DNA of 64,000 nucleotides from Candidatus Naiadarchaeum limnaeum (GTDB lineage: Archaea; Undinarchaeota; Undinarchaeia; Undinarchaeales; Naiadarchaeaceae): assembly GCA_014189685.1 (NCBI GenBank), contig DVAB01000023.1:1-64000 (forward strand), written 5' to 3'. The notes beneath the pieces are model-generated. The model was not told where the DNA came from. It saw only the letters and a list, made by a program, of their open reading frames with translations, and ran no database searches. Positions 22,431 through 30,083 of this stretch are shown in pieces. Position 1 is the first letter of the stretch; each line of letters begins with the position of its first letter. Made by a program: the position numbers and the translations under genes.

Positions 22431-22530
22431 AGCGAGGTAGGGCAGCCTGGAGTGCCCGTCGGGCTCATAGACACACCTTAAAGGGTGTTGAGGGACCCGA
22501 AGGTCGTTGGTTCAAATCCAACCCTCGCTA
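22431..22530 (+). tRNA. Initiator tRNA-Met (anticodon CAT) with intron
   Basis: Acceptor AGCGAGG (22431-22437) pairs with CCTCGCT (22523-22529), discriminator A22530. T arm GTTGG-TTCAAAT-CCAAC. The anticodon stem TCGGG/CCCGA carries the three consecutive G-C pairs of initiators, and the first pair is A-U, also an archaeal initiator mark. Anticodon CAT at 22466-22468. A 25-nt intron follows position 37. The 3' end overlaps the stop codon of the facing amidotransferase gene. Confidence 0.92.
22470..22494 (+). other. Intron of the initiator tRNA-Met gene
   Basis: The precursor forms a canonical bulge-helix-bulge: central helix CTCA (22464-22467) with TGAG (22489-22492), 3-nt bulges TA|G and GG|A with the cuts after the second base, and an intron hairpin ACACACC/GGGTGT. 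This is the archaeal splicing endonuclease substrate at position 37/38. Confidence 0.9.
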
Positions 22531-23199
22531 CTTTTTTACTACATCCAAAAAATTCTTAAAAATCTGCCACTCCACATATTCTTTTGGCTTTAACTTCACT
22601 GCCTCGTGGAAATCTGTGCAGTGCGGATCGTATTCCAGATAAGCAGTTCCGCTTTTTGGACTTTCCTCTGCATGGAATTGAACTCCATAAGTTATATCAT
22701 TATAGCGCACAGCCTGAATGCAGTCTGGCGTTTTTGCTAAGACATGGTATGACGTTTCTCCGTTGAAGCGCACAGCTTTTGTATGGTACTGGAAAACTAT
22801 GAATGGGTTTGGTAAACCGAAAAATAGTTTATCATTTTTTCCAGAAGGCGTTATCTCAACTTGCCTCCATCCTATTTCAGCGTTTTCAAGCTTGTAAACT
22901 TCTGCGCCAAAAACTTCTCCAACAATCTGAGAGCCAAAACAAATTCCAAGCAGCGGCTTTTTTGCCTGAATTATTTGTTCTATCTGCTCTCTTAATTGCC
23001 TTGCATATGCGTGCCTTTCAGAGCTTGTATCTGCACCGCTTATTGCAAAAATATCATACTCATCTATACTTGGAAATTCAAACTTGCGCGCCTCAACAAT
23101 ACTCACTTTCAATGTTTTGTCAGCTAGGAGAAAAGCATCCCTAATCTTTTCTGATTCCACAATTTTATTTTTATGGCAGTCGTAAATTAAAACGTTCAT
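22528..23199 (-). CDS. Class I glutamine amidotransferase-like hydrolase, last gene of the lysine operon
   Basis: 223 aa, a lone GATase1 domain. The nucleophile is in LLGICFGSQIVGE (Cys near residue 83) and the His-Glu pair in YGVQFHAEES (near 171). No synthetase domain is attached and none lies beside it. Its ATG overlaps the lysJ stop by 4 bases, so it belongs to the LysW operon. The step with no gene in the window is release of lysine from LysW, a gamma-glutamyl amide hydrolysis, chemistry that GATase1 enzymes such as PuuD perform. That role is an inference; a GMP-synthase-like or nonspecific amidotransferase is the alternative. The TAG stop lies in the last three bases of the tRNA gene. 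Confidence 0.8.
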   Translation of the reverse strand: MNVLIYDCHKNKIVESEKIRDAFLLADKTLKVSIVEARKFEFPSIDEYDIFAISGADTSSERHAYARQLREQIEQIIQAKKPLLGICFGSQIVGEVFGAEVYKLENAEIGWRQVEITPSGKNDKLFFGLPNPFIVFQYHTKAVRFNGETSYHVLAKTPDCIQAVRYNDITYGVQFHAEESPKSGTAYLEYDPHCTDFHEAVKLKPKEYVEWQIFKNFLDVVKK

Positions 23200-24359
23200 T
23201 TTGCAAAAGAATTTATAATAACTTTACTCACAGTTTCAACTTCTTTCTCGTTTATTATGAGAGGCGGCAAAAGTCTAATTGTGCTCATCCCAGATGTTTG
23301 CGCCAAAACTCCATTTTTCAAAGAAAATCCTAATTGTTCCTTAACAGGAAACCTTGACTCAACAGCGATCATTGCTCCAATTCCACGCACTTCGCGGATT
23401 TTTTCATTTCCATTCAACTGCTCAAGATTTTTTCTCAGCTTTTCTCCCATCTTTGCGCCTTTCTGTACTAATTTTTCTTTTTCTAGAACATCTAAACATG
23501 CAGTTCCTGCTGCACAAGCAAGTGCATTTCCTCCAAAAGTCGAAGCATGCTCACCAACTTCTAATTTATCAAAAATTTCTGTTCGCGCAGCGCAAAGTCC
23601 TATTGGAACTCCGCCTGCCAAACCTTTTGCAACTGTTAAAATATCAGGCTCAATTCCGAAAGTTTGTGCTGCAAAATAATTTCCGGTTCTTCCAAAAGTT
23701 TGTATCTCGTCCAGAATCATTAAAACTCCTTTTTCATCGCAAAGTTCGCGAACTTCTTTCAAATAGTTTCTGTCTGCGAGTACTACTCCTGCTTCTCCCT
23801 GAACAGCTTCTAAAATTACTCCTGCGGTTCTTTCTGTAATTGCATTTCTTAGCTCATCAATATTGTTAAAGCTAACGTGGGTAAACCCCGGAACTAAAGG
23901 CTCAAAAGGCTTTCTATATTTTGGCCGAAATGTTGCGCTCAGCGCTCCGAGTGTGCGGCCATGAAACCCATTTTTCATTGCAATAAAGTCTGTTTTGCCA
24001 GTTGCTTTTCTTGCAAGTTTTATTGTGCACTCAACAGCCTCTGTTCCGCTATTTCCAAGAAATATTTTTGAATTTTTAATTGGCAAAATTTTTGTAATCT
24101 TTTCAGCAAAGTTTGCCCGCGCCTCTGAATAAAAAATTCCAGGGGTTGTTATAATTTTTTGCGCTTGCTCTGAAACAGCTTTTGCAATATCTTTATTTCC
24201 GTGCCCAAGCAGTGCAACCCCATTTCCTGTTACGCAATCGATGTACTCTTTTCCATTTTTATCATAAACAATCGCACCGCTGCCGCGAACAATTTCAACA
24301 TCCCTCTTTGCGTATGTGTTCGCAATTAAATTATCCTCAATTTCTTTGAAAGATTTCAT
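23196..24359 (-). CDS. lysJ: LysW-aminoadipate semialdehyde aminotransferase (LysJ/ArgD family)
   Basis: 387 aa, class III PLP enzyme. Seen: GNSGTEAVECTIKLARKATG for cofactor binding, LDEIQTFGRTG with the PLP Asp, and the Schiff-base Lys in LTVAKGLAGGVPIG. In the carrier pathway it converts LysW-gamma-aminoadipate semialdehyde to LysW-gamma-lysine, and in some archaea also acts on the glutamate branch. The operon context favours LysJ over a free acetylornithine aminotransferase. It overlaps lysZ and the amidotransferase gene by 4 bases each. Confidence 0.88.
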   Translation of the reverse strand: MKSFKEIEDNLIANTYAKRDVEIVRGSGAIVYDKNGKEYIDCVTGNGVALLGHGNKDIAKAVSEQAQKIITTPGIFYSEARANFAEKITKILPIKNSKIFLGNSGTEAVECTIKLARKATGKTDFIAMKNGFHGRTLGALSATFRPKYRKPFEPLVPGFTHVSFNNIDELRNAITERTAGVILEAVQGEAGVVLADRNYLKEVRELCDEKGVLMILDEIQTFGRTGNYFAAQTFGIEPDILTVAKGLAGGVPIGLCAARTEIFDKLEVGEHASTFGGNALACAAGTACLDVLEKEKLVQKGAKMGEKLRKNLEQLNGNEKIREVRGIGAMIAVESRFPVKEQLGFSLKNGVLAQTSGMSTIRLLPPLIINEKEVETVSKVIINSFAK

Positions 24360-25132
24360 TGTTCCACTACTGTTCCCTCTCCATCCAGAGCTTTTGCAAT
24401 TGGATTTTCAACCACTCCACTTGCTATTACAAATCTTTTCACTCCAAATTCCATTGCTTCTTTTGCTGCAAGCAATTTCATTACCATTCCCCCTGAGACT
24501 TCTTTCATTTTCTGCTCCAACTGCTGAGCAGGAATGCGCCTTATTACTTTTTTGTTTGAATCATAAACTCCTGGAACATCGCTAAAGTTCAAAACAATTT
24601 CAGCCCCAAGCTCTTTTGCAATAAAAGCAGCTGCTCTATCAGCATTTACATTTACAATTTCATTTTGTTCAGTAAGAGCCATCGGCCCTATAACTGGAAC
24701 AAACTTTCTTTCAATCAAATCAGCAAACCTTTTTTTATCAATGCCTGTAATCTTTCCAGTATAGTCTCCTTCAAGTATCATTTTTCTTCCACTCTCAATT
24801 ATTTTTATTCTGTCTTTTCTCTGAGCGTAAATTGCATTGCTTAAACCAATCGCAGTAATCCCTTCTTTTTTAAAAGTTGAAACAATTTCATTGTTCAAAT
24901 CATTTGCAGCTCTGTTAAATATTTCAACAGTTTCTTTGTCAGTATATCTGCTTCTTATTCCCTGAACAGATATGACCCATCTAGGTTCTTTTCCTAATTT
25001 TCTTGTCAATTCATCAGCCTGGGGGCCAACTCCATGCACCAAAACGCATGGCTCATTCAAACTCTTTAAATCCCTTGCAATATTTTCAATGCCGTCTGCA
25101 ATGCTTCCCCCAACTTTAATAACAATAGTCAT
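24356..25132 (-). CDS. lysZ: LysW-aminoadipate/glutamate kinase
   Basis: 258 aa amino acid kinase fold. The N-terminus TIVIKVGGSIADG and the ATP region NFSDVPGVYDSNK are those of the ArgB/LysZ family. It phosphorylates the side-chain carboxylate of the carrier-bound substrate. MTIVIKVGG at 25132 was chosen; the frame extends 13 codons upstream into the end of lysY without family similarity. Placement between lysY and lysJ supports LysZ. Confidence 0.88.
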   Translation of the reverse strand: MTIVIKVGGSIADGIENIARDLKSLNEPCVLVHGVGPQADELTRKLGKEPRWVISVQGIRSRYTDKETVEIFNRAANDLNNEIVSTFKKEGITAIGLSNAIYAQRKDRIKIIESGRKMILEGDYTGKITGIDKKRFADLIERKFVPVIGPMALTEQNEIVNVNADRAAAFIAKELGAEIVLNFSDVPGVYDSNKKVIRRIPAQQLEQKMKEVSGGMVMKLLAAKEAMEFGVKRFVIASGVVENPIAKALDGEGTVVEQ

Positions 25133-25142
25133 TTTCAGAAAA

Positions 25143-26189
25143 TTAAATCGGGTGCAACCCAAAAAATTCAAGCCCTTCTGTTTCTTTAAATCCAGAAATT
25201 ATGTTCATTGCCTGAACTGCTTGTCCAGATGCGCCCTTCATTAAATTATCAAGTGCGCTCATGACAACAAGCCTGTTTGAATTTTCATCGCGCTCAAAAC
25301 CAACATCGCAATAATTTGTTCCGGTTAATAATTTTGGCTCAGGATATCTATAAATTCCATCTTTCTCTTTTACAATTCTTACAAAAGGCTCTCCTGAGTA
25401 ATATTTTCTGTAAACTTGCCATATATCTTTTTCAGTTAAATTTTTATTTAAGAAAACATGGCAAGTGCTTAAAATACCTCGGACTAAATCAACAGCATGT
25501 GGACTAAAAGAAATTACTGGCCTATTTCCATTAAAGTTTAGCTCCTGCTCCATTTCGCCCGTGTGCCTGTGGAAACTTGGCTTGTAAGCTCGAACAACAT
25601 TTGCGCGCTCAGCATGCATATCTGCTAGGTCTGCTTTGCTCCCGCTTGCAGAACTTCCAACTTTTGAATCAACAACAATATGTTCTGTTTCAATTAAACC
25701 CTCTTTTGCTAATGGATATAGAGCAAGAATTGCACTTGTTGCTAAACATCCTGCTCCTGAAATATAATTTGCCTTTTTCATCTCTTCCCTGTGTAATTCT
25801 GGAATTCCATAAACAAATTTTTCAATTAATTCAGGGCATTCGTGCTTGTGTCCATACCACTTCTCATATTCTTTTGGATTTTTTAATCTGAAATCTGCGC
25901 TCAAATCAACAATTTTCTCAGCATGCTTTATGTAAGTTCTCATATTTTTCATTGCAACACCATGCGGAACTGCTGAAAAAATTAAATCGTAATTTCCAAG
26001 CTCTGAATTTTTTATGAATTTTAATTCAGTTTTTTTTCTTAGATTTGGATGCACCTTTGAAACAGAATGGCCCGCATTTGAATCAGAAGTTACAGCTTTA
26101 ATATCAAATTCTGGCTGATTTAATCTTTTCCCCATTAAATTTCTGCCAGTATATCCACTTGCCCCGACAATTGCCACTTCAATGCTCAT
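25143..26189 (-). CDS. lysY: LysW-aminoadipyl/glutamyl phosphate reductase
   Basis: 348 aa. A Rossmann N-terminus ([19 protein letters not shown]) precedes the catalytic Cys in [19 protein letters not shown] near residue 148. [35 protein letters not shown] is typical of LysY/ArgC of the carrier pathway. NADPH-dependent reduction gives the semialdehyde. The 5' end overlaps lysX by 4 bases. Confidence 0.9.
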
Positions 26190-27037
26190 CTTTTTGCTAC
26201 CCTCAAAACATAATCGATAATTAATTTTGGAAGCTCAGGATTGCTCTTTATAGTATTTCTGAATTCAGGAGTGTGGTTTATTTCATGGACTAAAAATTCC
26301 CCTTCCTTTGCATTTTCCATTAAATCAACAGCTAGAACTCCCCCTCCAACAGCTTCTGAGGCTTTTGCACAAATTTCTTTTAACTCATTAGTTATTGGGC
26401 ATGGCTCTGCTCCCCCTCCTCGAGCTGTATTTGTAATCCAGTGCTTAGAGATTCTGTAAATCGCTGCAACTACTTCATTGTCAATTACAAATGCTCTTAT
26501 ATCGCGGCCCGGTTTTTTTATATACTCCTGTATGTAGAAAACTGAGTGCACAAATTCCCCAAGGCTCTGCTTGTGTTCTAAGAGAGCTTCTGCTGCCTCT
26601 CTATCAGACGCTTTTGCAATCAATCTTCCCCAGCTTCCAGAAACCGGCTTTAGCACAACAGGATATCCAAACTCTTCAATTGCTTTTAGTGCGCTTTCTT
26701 GAGAAAACGCAATCACTGTTTTTGGAGTTGGTACGCCAGCTTTTTTTAAGAGTAAAGAGGTCCATGCTTTATCTCCACATATAGACGAAACTTTAAAGTT
26801 ATTCACAGTTGGAACATTGCACTGCTCATAGCATGCGACTGAATACAATCCGCGAATAAAAGAAATACTTCTGTTTAAAACAACATCAAACTGAATATTG
26901 CAAACTGCAGGATCAATATCGAAAGAACATTCTCTATCGTCCACCATTGTAACTTTTGCATTTCTTTTTGCCAGTTCCTCAAGTAGCATTTTCTCTTCTT
27001 CTCTTATCCTCGAATATAGGAAGCCAACCTTTGTCAT
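26186..27037 (-). CDS. lysX: LysW-aminoadipate ligase (LysX/ArgX family)
   Basis: 283 aa, ATP-grasp RimK-like fold. It attaches alpha-aminoadipate (or glutamate) through its amino group to the C-terminal Glu of LysW. Visible: [29 protein letters not shown], the ATP loop [12 protein letters not shown], and metal ligands in [22 protein letters not shown]. Only one LysX is in the window, so whether the same enzyme also serves arginine cannot be read here. It overlaps its neighbours on both sides. Confidence 0.9.
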
Positions 27038-27522
27038 AATTTGAATCCTTTGTTTTTCTTTATGTGCGCAATCAAACCGCCATCATTTAGAATTTCAAGC
27101 ATTACAGGCGGAAGTGCAAACGCTTTTAATTTATTTCCTCTTGTTTGATTATTAATTATCCCATTTTCTAAATAAACTTCTAATTCGTCTCCGTCGTTTA
27201 TTTGAGAAGTATCAGCTTCTAAAATTGGCAATCCGATATTTATTGCATTTCTATAGAAAATTCTTGCAAAACTTTGTGCTATCACAGCTTTTACTCCTAA
27301 ATGTTTTAGAACAATTGCAGCATATTCCCTACTAGAGCCTGTTCCAAAACCAATTCCTCCTGCAACGAAATCTCCCTGCTTTACATTTTTTGCAAAATCA
27401 GGATTAACATCGATTAAAGTGTATTTAGCAAGCTCATCCAAATTGTTTCTTAAGTGATAAACTCTGCCAGGGCAGAGCAAATCTGTGCTTATATTATCTC
27501 CAAATTTCCAAACTCTTCCCAT
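27034..27522 (-). CDS. lysU: Homoaconitase small subunit (LeuD family)
   Basis: 162 aa swivelling domain. It begins [19 protein letters not shown] and has the conserved [15 protein letters not shown]. The substrate loop reads [11 protein letters not shown]; the methanogen homoaconitase has YLRT here, with the Arg used for longer substrates, while isopropylmalate isomerases differ. The retained Leu-Arg supports homoaconitase. It lies one base after the large subunit. Confidence 0.83.
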
Positions 27523-27523
27523 T

Positions 27524-28780
27524 TTACAAATACTCCCGCGGGTCTGTTATTATTCCCTCAATTATTGTTGCAGCTGCTGTTGCAGGACTGCCAAGATAAA
27601 CTGAAGCATTTGGATTTCCCATTCTTCCCTTATAATTTCTATTCTGCGTTGAAAGACAAACCTCTCCATCCCCTAAAATTCCTGCATGAATTCCAGGGCA
27701 GGCTCCGCATCCTGGCGCTGTAACAACTCCACCTGTTTCCATGAATATATTCACTAAGCCTTCTTTTGCAGCTTGCATGTAAACCTCTGCAGATGCAGGG
27801 CAAACAATAAATCTAGTTCCTTTTGCTCTTTGTTCGCCTTTTAAAATTTTTGCAGCTATTCTTAAATCTTCAATTCTTCCGTTTGTGCAAGTCCCAATAT
27901 AAACTTGATTTACTTTCACTTCTCCAATTTCTGAAATTTTTTTAACATTTGCAACTGAATGCGGAGCCGCAACAACTGGTTCTAACCCACTTGCATTTAT
28001 TTCAATTACTCTTTCATAATTTGCATTTTCATCAGCTCTAATTTCCCTGAACTGATTTTCACGGTCGTGTGCTTTCAAATAAGTTCTTGCAGTTTTATCT
28101 GTTTCAATCAATCCAACTTTTCCTCCTGCCTCAACCGCCATGTTGCTCAGTGTAAATCGAGATTCCATTGAAAGATTTTTAATCGTGCTTCCTCTGTATT
28201 CAAGAGATTTGTAATTCGCTCCATCCTCCCCAAGCATTCCAATCAAAGTTAGTATGATATCTTTTGAGTAAACACCTTTTGATAATTTTCCATCAACTTG
28301 TACTCTAATTGTTTCTGGAACCCTAAGCCAAGTTTTTCCCAAATGCATTGCAACTGCAACATCTGTACTCCCCATTCCTGTTGCAAAGCAAGAAAGTGCT
28401 CCTGCTGTAACTGTGTGTGAATCTCCTCCAATTAAAACAGTTCCAGGCATAGCATAATTCTCAACTAAAACCTGATGGCAAATTCCGCTTCCAGCCTCGT
28501 GGAATTTTGACCCTGTTTTTTCTGTGAATTGTCTTAGAACAACCTGAGCATTTGCCAATTCAGCCCGTGCTGCCGGAGCGCTATGGTCAACAAAGAAAAT
28601 TGTATTTTTCGGGTTTGAGAGATTAAACTGATTGTCCTCTATTCTTTTTATTGCCAAAGGCCCGCTTCCATCATGGGCCATGGTTGTTCTAATTTTAGCT
28701 ATTACTATGTCTCCTGCTCTCGCATTCTTTTTTGTGAGAGAGTTTGCACTGAGTATTTTTTCAGCTAATGTTTGTTCCAT
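27524..28780 (-). CDS. lysT: Homoaconitase large subunit (LeuC family)
   Basis: 418 aa, the length of archaeal LeuC/HacA. Cys ligands of the [4Fe-4S] cluster are in YIGTCTNGRIEDL and APGCGACPG. It isomerises homocitrate to homoisocitrate with the small subunit. The operon with LysW argues for lysine rather than leucine. No homoisocitrate dehydrogenase gene is in the window; it must be elsewhere or shared with a leucine enzyme. Confidence 0.87.
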   Translation of the reverse strand: MEQTLAEKILSANSLTKKNARAGDIVIAKIRTTMAHDGSGPLAIKRIEDNQFNLSNPKNTIFFVDHSAPAARAELANAQVVLRQFTEKTGSKFHEAGSGICHQVLVENYAMPGTVLIGGDSHTVTAGALSCFATGMGSTDVAVAMHLGKTWLRVPETIRVQVDGKLSKGVYSKDIILTLIGMLGEDGANYKSLEYRGSTIKNLSMESRFTLSNMAVEAGGKVGLIETDKTARTYLKAHDRENQFREIRADENANYERVIEINASGLEPVVAAPHSVANVKKISEIGEVKVNQVYIGTCTNGRIEDLRIAAKILKGEQRAKGTRFIVCPASAEVYMQAAKEGLVNIFMETGGVVTAPGCGACPGIHAGILGDGEVCLSTQNRNYKGRMGNPNASVYLGSPATAAATIIEGIITDPREYL

Positions 28781-28795
28781 AATCTATAATGAAAA

Positions 28796-28960
28796 TTATT
28801 CTCCCCAATCTTCTCCAGCAACTTCTGCAACTCTTAATTCTCCTGATTGCGGATTCACAACTTCAAGCTCCACCCCACATTCTGGGCAATCAATTATTTC
28901 ACCCTTCATTGCTCCGTTTGGAATATTTATTTGAGCTCCGCATTCAATGCATTCTGTCAA
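28796..28960 (-). CDS. lysW: LysW amino-group carrier protein
   Basis: 54 aa, beginning with a TTG start. Two zinc knuckles are present (CIEC at Cys4/Cys7 and CPEC at Cys25/Cys28), followed by an acidic tail ending EDWGE, the LysW signature. The terminal Glu54 is the attachment site for aminoadipate or glutamate. GAGGTGAT lies just upstream, inside the end of the homocitrate synthase gene, whose stop is one base before the TTG. No in-frame ATG or GTG exists before an upstream stop, so TTG is well supported. Confidence 0.93.
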   Translation of the reverse strand: MTECIECGAQINIPNGAMKGEIIDCPECGVELEVVNPQSGELRVAEVAGEDWGE

Positions 28961-28961
28961 C

Positions 28962-30083
28962 TCAAATCACCTCATCCTTTCTTATTTTTTCAACTAACAA
29001 AACTAGTTCTGAATCTCCAATCTCCCCGCTTGTTTCTGCAGCCTCTCTAACACTTTCCGCAAGCATAGATATTTGCTCTTCCTGCAATTTTATCCCTAAT
29101 TCGTTAAGCTTATGCCTTATTAAGTTTTTGCCACTAAATTTTCCCAATACCAATCTCCTCTTATTTCCAACAGATTCTGGGGGAACTGGCTCATAAGCGT
29201 GCGGATTTTTTAGAACAGCTGCTGTGTGAATTCCTGCTGTATGAGTAAAAGCATGTCTTCCAACTATTGGAGATCGGTTGCTTAAAGGAATTCCACTTGC
29301 TTCTGCAACATATTCTGAAATTTCCTTTAGCATTTCTGTTTTCACATCTAATTGAACATTGTAAGCATATTTCAAAGCCATCACAGTCTCTGCTAACGGG
29401 CATATTCCAACTCTCTCCCCAAGCCCGTTAACTGTACACTGAATCTGGTCAGCGCCTGCCTGCACTCCTGCAATTGCATTTGCAATCGCTAATCCAAAAT
29501 CATTGTGGCAGTGCAAGTCTATTCCAACTTTTAAGTATTGCAGACTTTCAACCAGTTGTACTATTTTTTGCGGAGTTGCAATTCCAACAGTATCTGTAAT
29601 GCTTATTCTGTCGGCCCCGGCGTTTACAGCTTTTTCAATTATTCTTCTCCAGACATCGTTTGGTGTTCTTGAAGAATCCTCTGGGGTAAATCTAACTTTC
29701 AGGCCCCTGTTTAGTGCATAAGATATTGAGTTAACTAAAATTTCCTCTAGATATTCTCTAGTTACGTTTAATTTGCTCTCAATCTGGATATCGGATGTTG
29801 GCATGTTAATTACAACGCGATCGCAGCCAGCTTCTGCAACAGCATCTATATCCTCAGTCTTTGCTCTTGCATATCCAAGTGTCTCAAAATCATATCCCAA
29901 TTCGCAAATGGCTTTTGAGGCTTCCATAGCACCCTTAGAACTTGATGGAAATCCAACTTCTATTGAATTAACTCCAAACCCTCCAAGCAAGCTTGCAATT
30001 TTTATTTTCTGCTCTATGCTGAAAGCTACCCCGGGTGTTTGCTCTCCCTCGCGCAGTGTAGTATCCAATATCATAACCTTCAT
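28962..30083 (-). CDS. Homocitrate synthase (LeuA-like family)
   Basis: 373 aa. TIM-barrel synthase with DTTLREGEQTPGVAF at the N-terminus, metal ligands in LHCHNDFG, and GLGERVGICPL. It lacks the C-terminal LeuA dimer domain of feedback-regulated isopropylmalate synthases and matches the length of Thermus homocitrate synthase. It condenses 2-oxoglutarate and acetyl-CoA, the first step of the aminoadipate pathway. First gene of the operon, with a very short leader. Isopropylmalate or citramalate synthase activity cannot be excluded from sequence alone. Confidence 0.85.
   Translation of the reverse strand: MKVMILDTTLREGEQTPGVAFSIEQKIKIASLLGGFGVNSIEVGFPSSSKGAMEASKAICELGYDFETLGYARAKTEDIDAVAEAGCDRVVINMPTSDIQIESKLNVTREYLEEILVNSISYALNRGLKVRFTPEDSSRTPNDVWRRIIEKAVNAGADRISITDTVGIATPQKIVQLVESLQYLKVGIDLHCHNDFGLAIANAIAGVQAGADQIQCTVNGLGERVGICPLAETVMALKYAYNVQLDVKTEMLKEISEYVAEASGIPLSNRSPIVGRHAFTHTAGIHTAAVLKNPHAYEPVPPESVGNKRRLVLGKFSGKNLIRHKLNELGIKLQEEQISMLAESVREAAETSGEIGDSELVLLVEKIRKDEVI

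Follow-up and report, generated by a model that had tools for sequence, protein, structure and literature searches.

A lone class-I glutamine amidotransferase as a putative LysW-γ-lysine hydrolase in the LysW operon of Candidatus Naiadarchaeum limnaeum

The stretch of DNA analyzed here (the window; 64,000 nucleotides of contig DVAB01000023.1, Candidatus Naiadarchaeum limnaeum, Undinarchaeota) carries an operon for amino acid synthesis on the carrier protein LysW, and the last gene of this operon encodes a lone class-I glutamine amidotransferase (GATase1). This study provides comparative genomic evidence that GATase1 is probably the hydrolase that completes lysine biosynthesis on LysW, acting as a non-orthologous replacement of the peptidase LysK. 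The evidence consists of the gene content of the operon, the coupling of GATase1 to lysJ, the absence of LysK, the mutual exclusion of LysK and operonic GATases, the recurrence of a GATase of unrelated fold in other LysK-lacking archaea, the glutamine-ended LysW proteins of several lineages and an intact catalytic triad; the substrate, the reaction and a possible deamidase role are inferred from these data. LysK/ArgE peptidases are credited with the final step of lysine and ornithine synthesis on LysW, and genomes without them are read as incomplete or auxotrophic.

Results

A survey of archaeal genomes found LysX in 394 of them, and the gene neighborhoods were read at about 55 loci. The standard plan in this survey was a LysW ending in glutamate together with an M20-family LysK inside or close to the operon. 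LysK scored above its curated cut-off in 34 LysX-bearing genomes, a few of whose loci showed LysX without a visible LysW operon, and a GATase within the LysW operon was found in none of the 34; likewise, LysK exceeded the cut-off in none of the 10 genomes with an operonic GATase. Seven LysX genomes examined were without LysK above the cut-off, namely that of Ca. N. limnaeum (G000), G004, G005, G331, G382, G336 and G265, and an operonic GATase was present in six of them. In the genomes examined, LysK and operonic GATase are mutually exclusive, and perfectly so. The Fisher test of this exclusion gave p of approximately 1.6e-6 with genomes as units and 6e-4 with families, the latter being the fairer value because related genomes are not independent. 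Only genomes of the LysX survey entered the test, in which G265 was scored against the hypothesis, and G449, G422, G477 and G426 were left out because they had been found through the GATase.

Other amidotransferase genes near LysW or LysX were not counted. A lone GATase1 located approximately 8–9 kb from LysW in family f7 lies outside the operon and in the other orientation, with LysK present, and both CarA beside LysW or LysX (f9, f19 and other loci) and a HisH-like gene near L080 are defined amidotransferases. In L097 and L091 (f19 and f9, respectively), carbamoyl phosphate synthase genes (carA-like and carB-sized) stand directly upstream of the LysW gene.

The genome of Ca. N. limnaeum (family f1) comprises 984 kb in 52 contigs and is 98% complete. 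A single minus-strand operon at 22528–30083 has the order homocitrate synthase-type gene, LysW, HacA, HacB, LysX, LysY, LysZ, LysJ and GATase1. Its genes are as follows:

28962..30083, minus strand: homocitrate/isopropylmalate synthase family enzyme, the first gene of the operon (PF00682 and HCS_D2; the LysS and isopropylmalate synthase models both below cut-off)
28796..28960, minus strand: LysW carrier protein with the C-terminus ...GEDWGE (PF21344, 58 bits; NF041070, 72.7 of 75)
27524..28780, minus strand: homoaconitase large subunit type, HacA/LeuC (TIGR01343, above cut-off)
27034..27522, minus strand: homoaconitase small subunit type, HacB/LeuD (TIGR02087, above cut-off)
26186..27037, minus strand: LysX, LysW-aminoadipate ligase with the GSWGR motif (TIGR02144, 331 bits; cut-off 275.6)
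25143..26189, minus strand: LysY, [LysW]-aminoadipyl phosphate reductase of the ArgC family (TIGR01850, 404 bits)
24356..25171, minus strand: LysZ, [LysW]-aminoadipate kinase (NF010662, above cut-off)
23196..24359, minus strand: LysJ, [LysW]-aminoadipate semialdehyde transaminase (TIGR00707, 438 bits, above cut-off; LysJ models among the next best)
22528..23199, minus strand: lone GATase1 of 223 residues, putative LysW-γ-lysine hydrolase, with Cys87 and His176-x-Glu178 (PF00117, 75 bits; no NCBIfam equivalog above cut-off)

A LysW with C-terminal glutamate thus stands in one operon with LysX, LysY, LysZ and LysJ, the gene set of LysW-mediated lysine biosynthesis. An earlier reading of the sequence alone (the sequence-only reading) had described an operon complete from LysW loading to LysJ without a LysK-type peptidase, and these genes were confirmed at their places. 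The start of GATase1 sits in the stop codon of lysJ (ATGA, a 4-base overlap; ..GCAAAATGAACG..). No homoisocitrate dehydrogenase gene was found in the operon, and one Iso_dh gene (isocitrate/isopropylmalate dehydrogenase family) lies elsewhere in the genome, on contig C6. Since argininosuccinate synthase was not found in this genome, lysine rather than arginine is the likely product of the operon. A second LysX/RimK-like ATP-grasp ligase (L087:4251-5123, contig C24; 290 residues, 32% identity to LysX) is located away from the LysW genes. Viral contigs were also searched, and no relative was found.

Neither LysK (TIGR01902) nor any M20 domain (PF01546) was found in the whole genome, in a search that covered M20 and did not extend to M28, M42 and other peptidase families. 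This agrees with the expectation of the sequence-only reading that no LysK/ArgE homologue would lie elsewhere in the genome.

The order was represented by five further genomes (G001–G005). G004 and G005, from another family of the order, have LysW, LysX, LysY, LysZ, LysJ and GATase1 in this sequence, with 52% identity in GATase1 and the ATGA overlap kept; GATase1 therefore follows lysJ directly in relatives as well, as had been predicted. The named relatives with this GATase1 are UBA55 and 'Candidatus Undinarchaeales' SRR5007147.bin71. G004 and G005 each have an M20 gene away from the operon, with 99 bits where the LysK cut-off is 163; the same gene also occurs in G003, which is without LysX. 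LysX and any close homologue of GATase1 are missing from G001 and G002. G003 keeps an intact gene for a LysW ending in glutamine (LysW-Q), and one 4.3-kb deletion took LysX through most of GATase1 (L082:9850-10270); as this single event removed them as a block, the joint loss in G003 was rejected as independent evidence.

Elsewhere among the archaea, the LysW operons of G331 and G382 (f126) and G336 (f127) contain a different enzyme between LysY and LysZ, a class-II (Ntn) GATase of 210–224 residues starting with MCR. Its nearest NCBIfam model is the γ-glutamyl hydrolase EgtC, a distant match (24–29 bits against a cut-off of 219). A search with this class-II GATase returned four more strong matches (G449, G422, G477 and G426), all four in LysW-type operons without M20 and in two gene orders, and LysK exceeded the cut-off in none of these genomes. 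In total, seven genomes without LysK, from five archaeal families (f107, f126, f127, f150 and f154), carry the class-II GATase in a LysW-type operon; one copy of it lies at L115:5522-6154. The strongest matches to its profile were all of the LysW-operon type, and the weaker ones looked at (up to 80 bits) were not beside LysW genes. These data point to a convergent replacement of LysK by an enzyme whose fold is unrelated to that of GATase1. Two peculiarities of LysJ were observed in these operons: in f126 (L079:9702-14479 and L080:9313-14111), LysZ and LysJ are fused into a protein of 667–669 residues with the class-II GATase directly upstream, and in G426, where the class-II GATase comes after LysJ and not after LysY, the LysJ gene immediately before it is broken into two open frames (L200:2064-3080).

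The class-I GATase fold of GATase1 is assigned by the PF00117 domain (75.4 bits against a gathering score of 22.8), and the triad Cys87, His176 and Glu178 is invariant across 30 aligned GATase1 proteins. The sequence-only reading had recognized a lone GATase1 with intact Cys and His-Glu and a 4-base overlap with lysJ, and both features are borne out. GATase1 is none of the known defined amidotransferases. For GMP synthase subunit A (GuaAa), it reached 58.9 bits with NF001975 and 61.4 bits with TIGR00888, against cut-offs of 198 and 172, whereas the genome's own subunit A is a separate gene on contig C35 that passed both (226 and 193 bits) and falls in another clade, so that family analysis does not group GATase1 with GMP synthase. 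It scored far below the cut-offs of the TrpG/PabA, HisH, CarA and γ-Glu-CDP-amidate hydrolase equivalogs and contains no M20 domain as in LysK. The PuuD/Peptidase_C26 model PF07722 passed its gathering score with 33.5 bits, and PF00117 was far higher; the nearest sequence families are broad lone GATases (PRK09065 type, 88 bits, far below the cut-off of 205). A tree built from 35 GATase1 proteins groups the protein of the window only with its two homologues from Undinarchaeota (99/97); this clade lies next to other lone GATases and separately from that of the GMP synthases. Both the E. coli references and the deep branches of this tree are long and weakly placed, and PuuD stands on a separate long branch.

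An AlphaFold2 model of GATase1 built from 30 sequences had a pLDDT of 92 and replaced a poor model from 3 sequences (pLDDT 57). Its best full-length PDB matches were the lone GATases DnfC, TM1158 and SMU.1228c together with γ-glutamyl peptidase 1 (GGP1), tied at Z 25–26.5. The GGP1 match, which includes the structure of its γ-Glu intermediate, spans 219–220 residues (TMq 0.79–0.83, Z approximately 25.8). GATase1 is thus predicted to share the GGP1-like fold over its full length, a common fold being by itself no proof of substrate.

Discussion

The replacement of LysK by GATase1, as proposed in the sequence-only reading, is supported at the genomic level by the absence of LysK, by the relatives, and by the unrelated class-II GATase in LysK-lacking archaea. 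That reading had further taken GATase1 for a γ-glutamyl-amide hydrolase of the PuuD sort; the type of activity is favored by the fold match to a γ-glutamyl hydrolase, whereas the nearest characterized enzyme is GGP1 and not PuuD.

In the proposed mechanism, LysJ would make LysW-γ-lysine, and Cys87 would then attack the γ-carbonyl of the C-terminal Glu54 of the carrier, so that lysine departs via its α-amino group. Hydrolysis of the resulting γ-glutamyl thioester on LysW would regenerate the carrier for LysX. By analogy with GATase chemistry, this would be the ordinary glutaminase half-reaction with lysine replacing ammonia.

The C-terminus of LysW bears on this mechanism. The cargo is joined to LysW via the γ-carboxyl of the C-terminal Glu54, and a haloarchaeal ArgW E54A mutant is auxotrophic (PMC10433800). 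LysW ends in EDWGQ in f4, f126 and f150, each with an operonic GATase, and LysW-Q also occurs in G265 (f111) and in f7. Glutamine is enriched in the GATase families with p of approximately 0.06, which is suggestive only. Since LysW-Q is encoded in place of an essential glutamate, something must open the γ-glutamyl amide at that residue, and we infer that the glutamine needs deamidation before LysX can use the γ-carboxyl. Dop sets a precedent, as it both deamidates PupQ and cleaves Pup off substrates (PMC8599861), and in the LysW-Q relatives the GATase probably likewise deamidates LysW to the Glu form needed by LysX. The idea that the LysX GSWGR motif covaries with LysW-E or LysW-Q was rejected, as GSWAR was found with both and there was no correlation. 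The genomes of f7 (L076, L077, L078, L134, L135 and L140) have two LysW genes each, of which the one for EDWGE adjoins ArgX-type LysX, LysY, LysZ and LysJ, and the one for EDWGQ adjoins a homocitrate-synthase-like gene, LysX and LysK.

These termini, the essential Glu of ArgW and the Dop precedent might also suggest that the GATase serves carrier maturation only, converting LysW-Gln to LysW-Glu while another peptidase frees lysine. We consider this improbable, since the window (f1), f127 and f154 retain the GATase and have no LysK although their LysW already ends in glutamate, and since f7 has LysW-Q plus LysK and no operonic GATase. As LysW of the window ends in Glu, release would be the natural role of GATase1 there, the function making it necessary. 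Deamidation and release are one kind of bond cleavage at one residue. It is an even chance, in our estimation, that LysK-lacking archaea recruited unrelated glutaminase-type enzymes at least twice (class I in Undinarchaeota and class II in several other lineages) to treat the LysW C-terminus like a glutamine side chain, one enzyme both deamidating ...EDWGQ and releasing the finished amino acid, so that an amino-group carrier protein would pass through a cycle like that of Pup and Dop.

It is similarly unlikely that GATase1 is only a passenger in the operon, a general γ-glutamyl peptidase or glutaminase serving peptide or glutathione-like turnover or the supply of ammonia. Its closeness to broad lone-GATase families and the diverse roles of some of its fold neighbors would fit such an enzyme. 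However, the ATGA coupling to lysJ is kept in two families, LysX and GATase1 are jointly missing in the rest of the order, an unrelated GATase takes the equivalent operonic place elsewhere with LysK missing every time, and no gene of the operon is known to require an ammonia donor.

Several data weigh against release by the GATase. In addition to the restriction of the peptidase search to M20, G265 showed no GATase although LysK was below the cut-off, its operon being cut by the contig end. Non-LysK M20 peptidases occur elsewhere in G004, G005 and some other GATase genomes. The operons of G004 and G005 (L042 and L041) are without homocitrate synthase and homoaconitase, and neither Iso_dh nor ArgG was found in these metagenome-assembled genomes, which are 75–83% complete; imported aminoadipate may be used there, or ornithine may be the product. 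Charge complementarity was tried and rejected, as the net charges of GATase1 (−4) and the acidic LysW (−10) give no sign of attraction. A LysK hidden in the gaps of the assembly, or an unlinked peptidase from some other family, might also carry out the release and leave GATase1 with a regulatory or unrelated role. This would suit the 52 contigs, the unlinked LysK of G116 and the families outside the search, but is the least probable explanation given zero M20 matches at 98% completeness and the absence of LysK also from G449 (a single contig) and G477 (4 contigs).

In the open-licence literature, no report of GATase-type release was found when LysW was combined with amidotransferase, γ-glutamyl or EDWGE, nor was any mention found of the C-terminal glutamine of LysW. 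The recurrence of GATases in LysK-lacking archaea suggests that this swap of enzymes happened more than once and had so far escaped notice, which would make it a new form of the LysW pathway. If GATase-type enzymes do carry out the release, pathway completeness has been underestimated in small archaeal genomes, two families of hitherto unassigned amidotransferases gain a function, and the C-terminal γ-glutamyl amide of a carrier protein becomes a new kind of substrate for glutaminases.

Comparison with Known Systems

The step proposed for GATase1, hydrolysis of the γ-glutamyl amide between Glu54 of LysW and lysine, is that of the LysK/ArgE-type [LysW]-lysine hydrolase (M20, TIGR01902), and lysK is often the gene after lysJ in LysW operons, as GATase1 is here. 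LysK is a metal-dependent M20 peptidase, whereas GATase1 is a Cys-His-Glu thiol enzyme; their folds are unrelated, and the two were never together in the operons examined.

Among γ-glutamyl hydrolases, Arabidopsis GGP1 (PDB 9k7i-9k7l) likewise has the lone GATase1 fold over its full length and cleaves the γ-glutamyl bond via a Cys thioester. The two share approximately 20% identity, and the substrates of GGP1 are small γ-Glu peptides with a free α-amino group, whereas Glu54 of LysW is a protein end. PuuD (γ-glutamyl-GABA hydrolase, Peptidase_C26) is also class-I GATase-like and hydrolyzes a γ-glutamyl amide, but is distant in sequence (33 bits with the C26 model against 75 for GATase) and in the tree, where its placement is weak. 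For the class-II GATase of other archaeal LysW operons, the nearest named family is the class-II GATase-type hydrolase EgtC, from which it differs in its low score and in standing in a LysW context and not one of ergothioneine.

The likeness to Dop is in working only. Dop is one enzyme that opens the γ-amide at the C-terminal Gln/Glu of a small carrier protein for both maturation and release, but it has a glutamine-synthetase fold, uses ATP/phosphate and shows no homology to the GATases described here.

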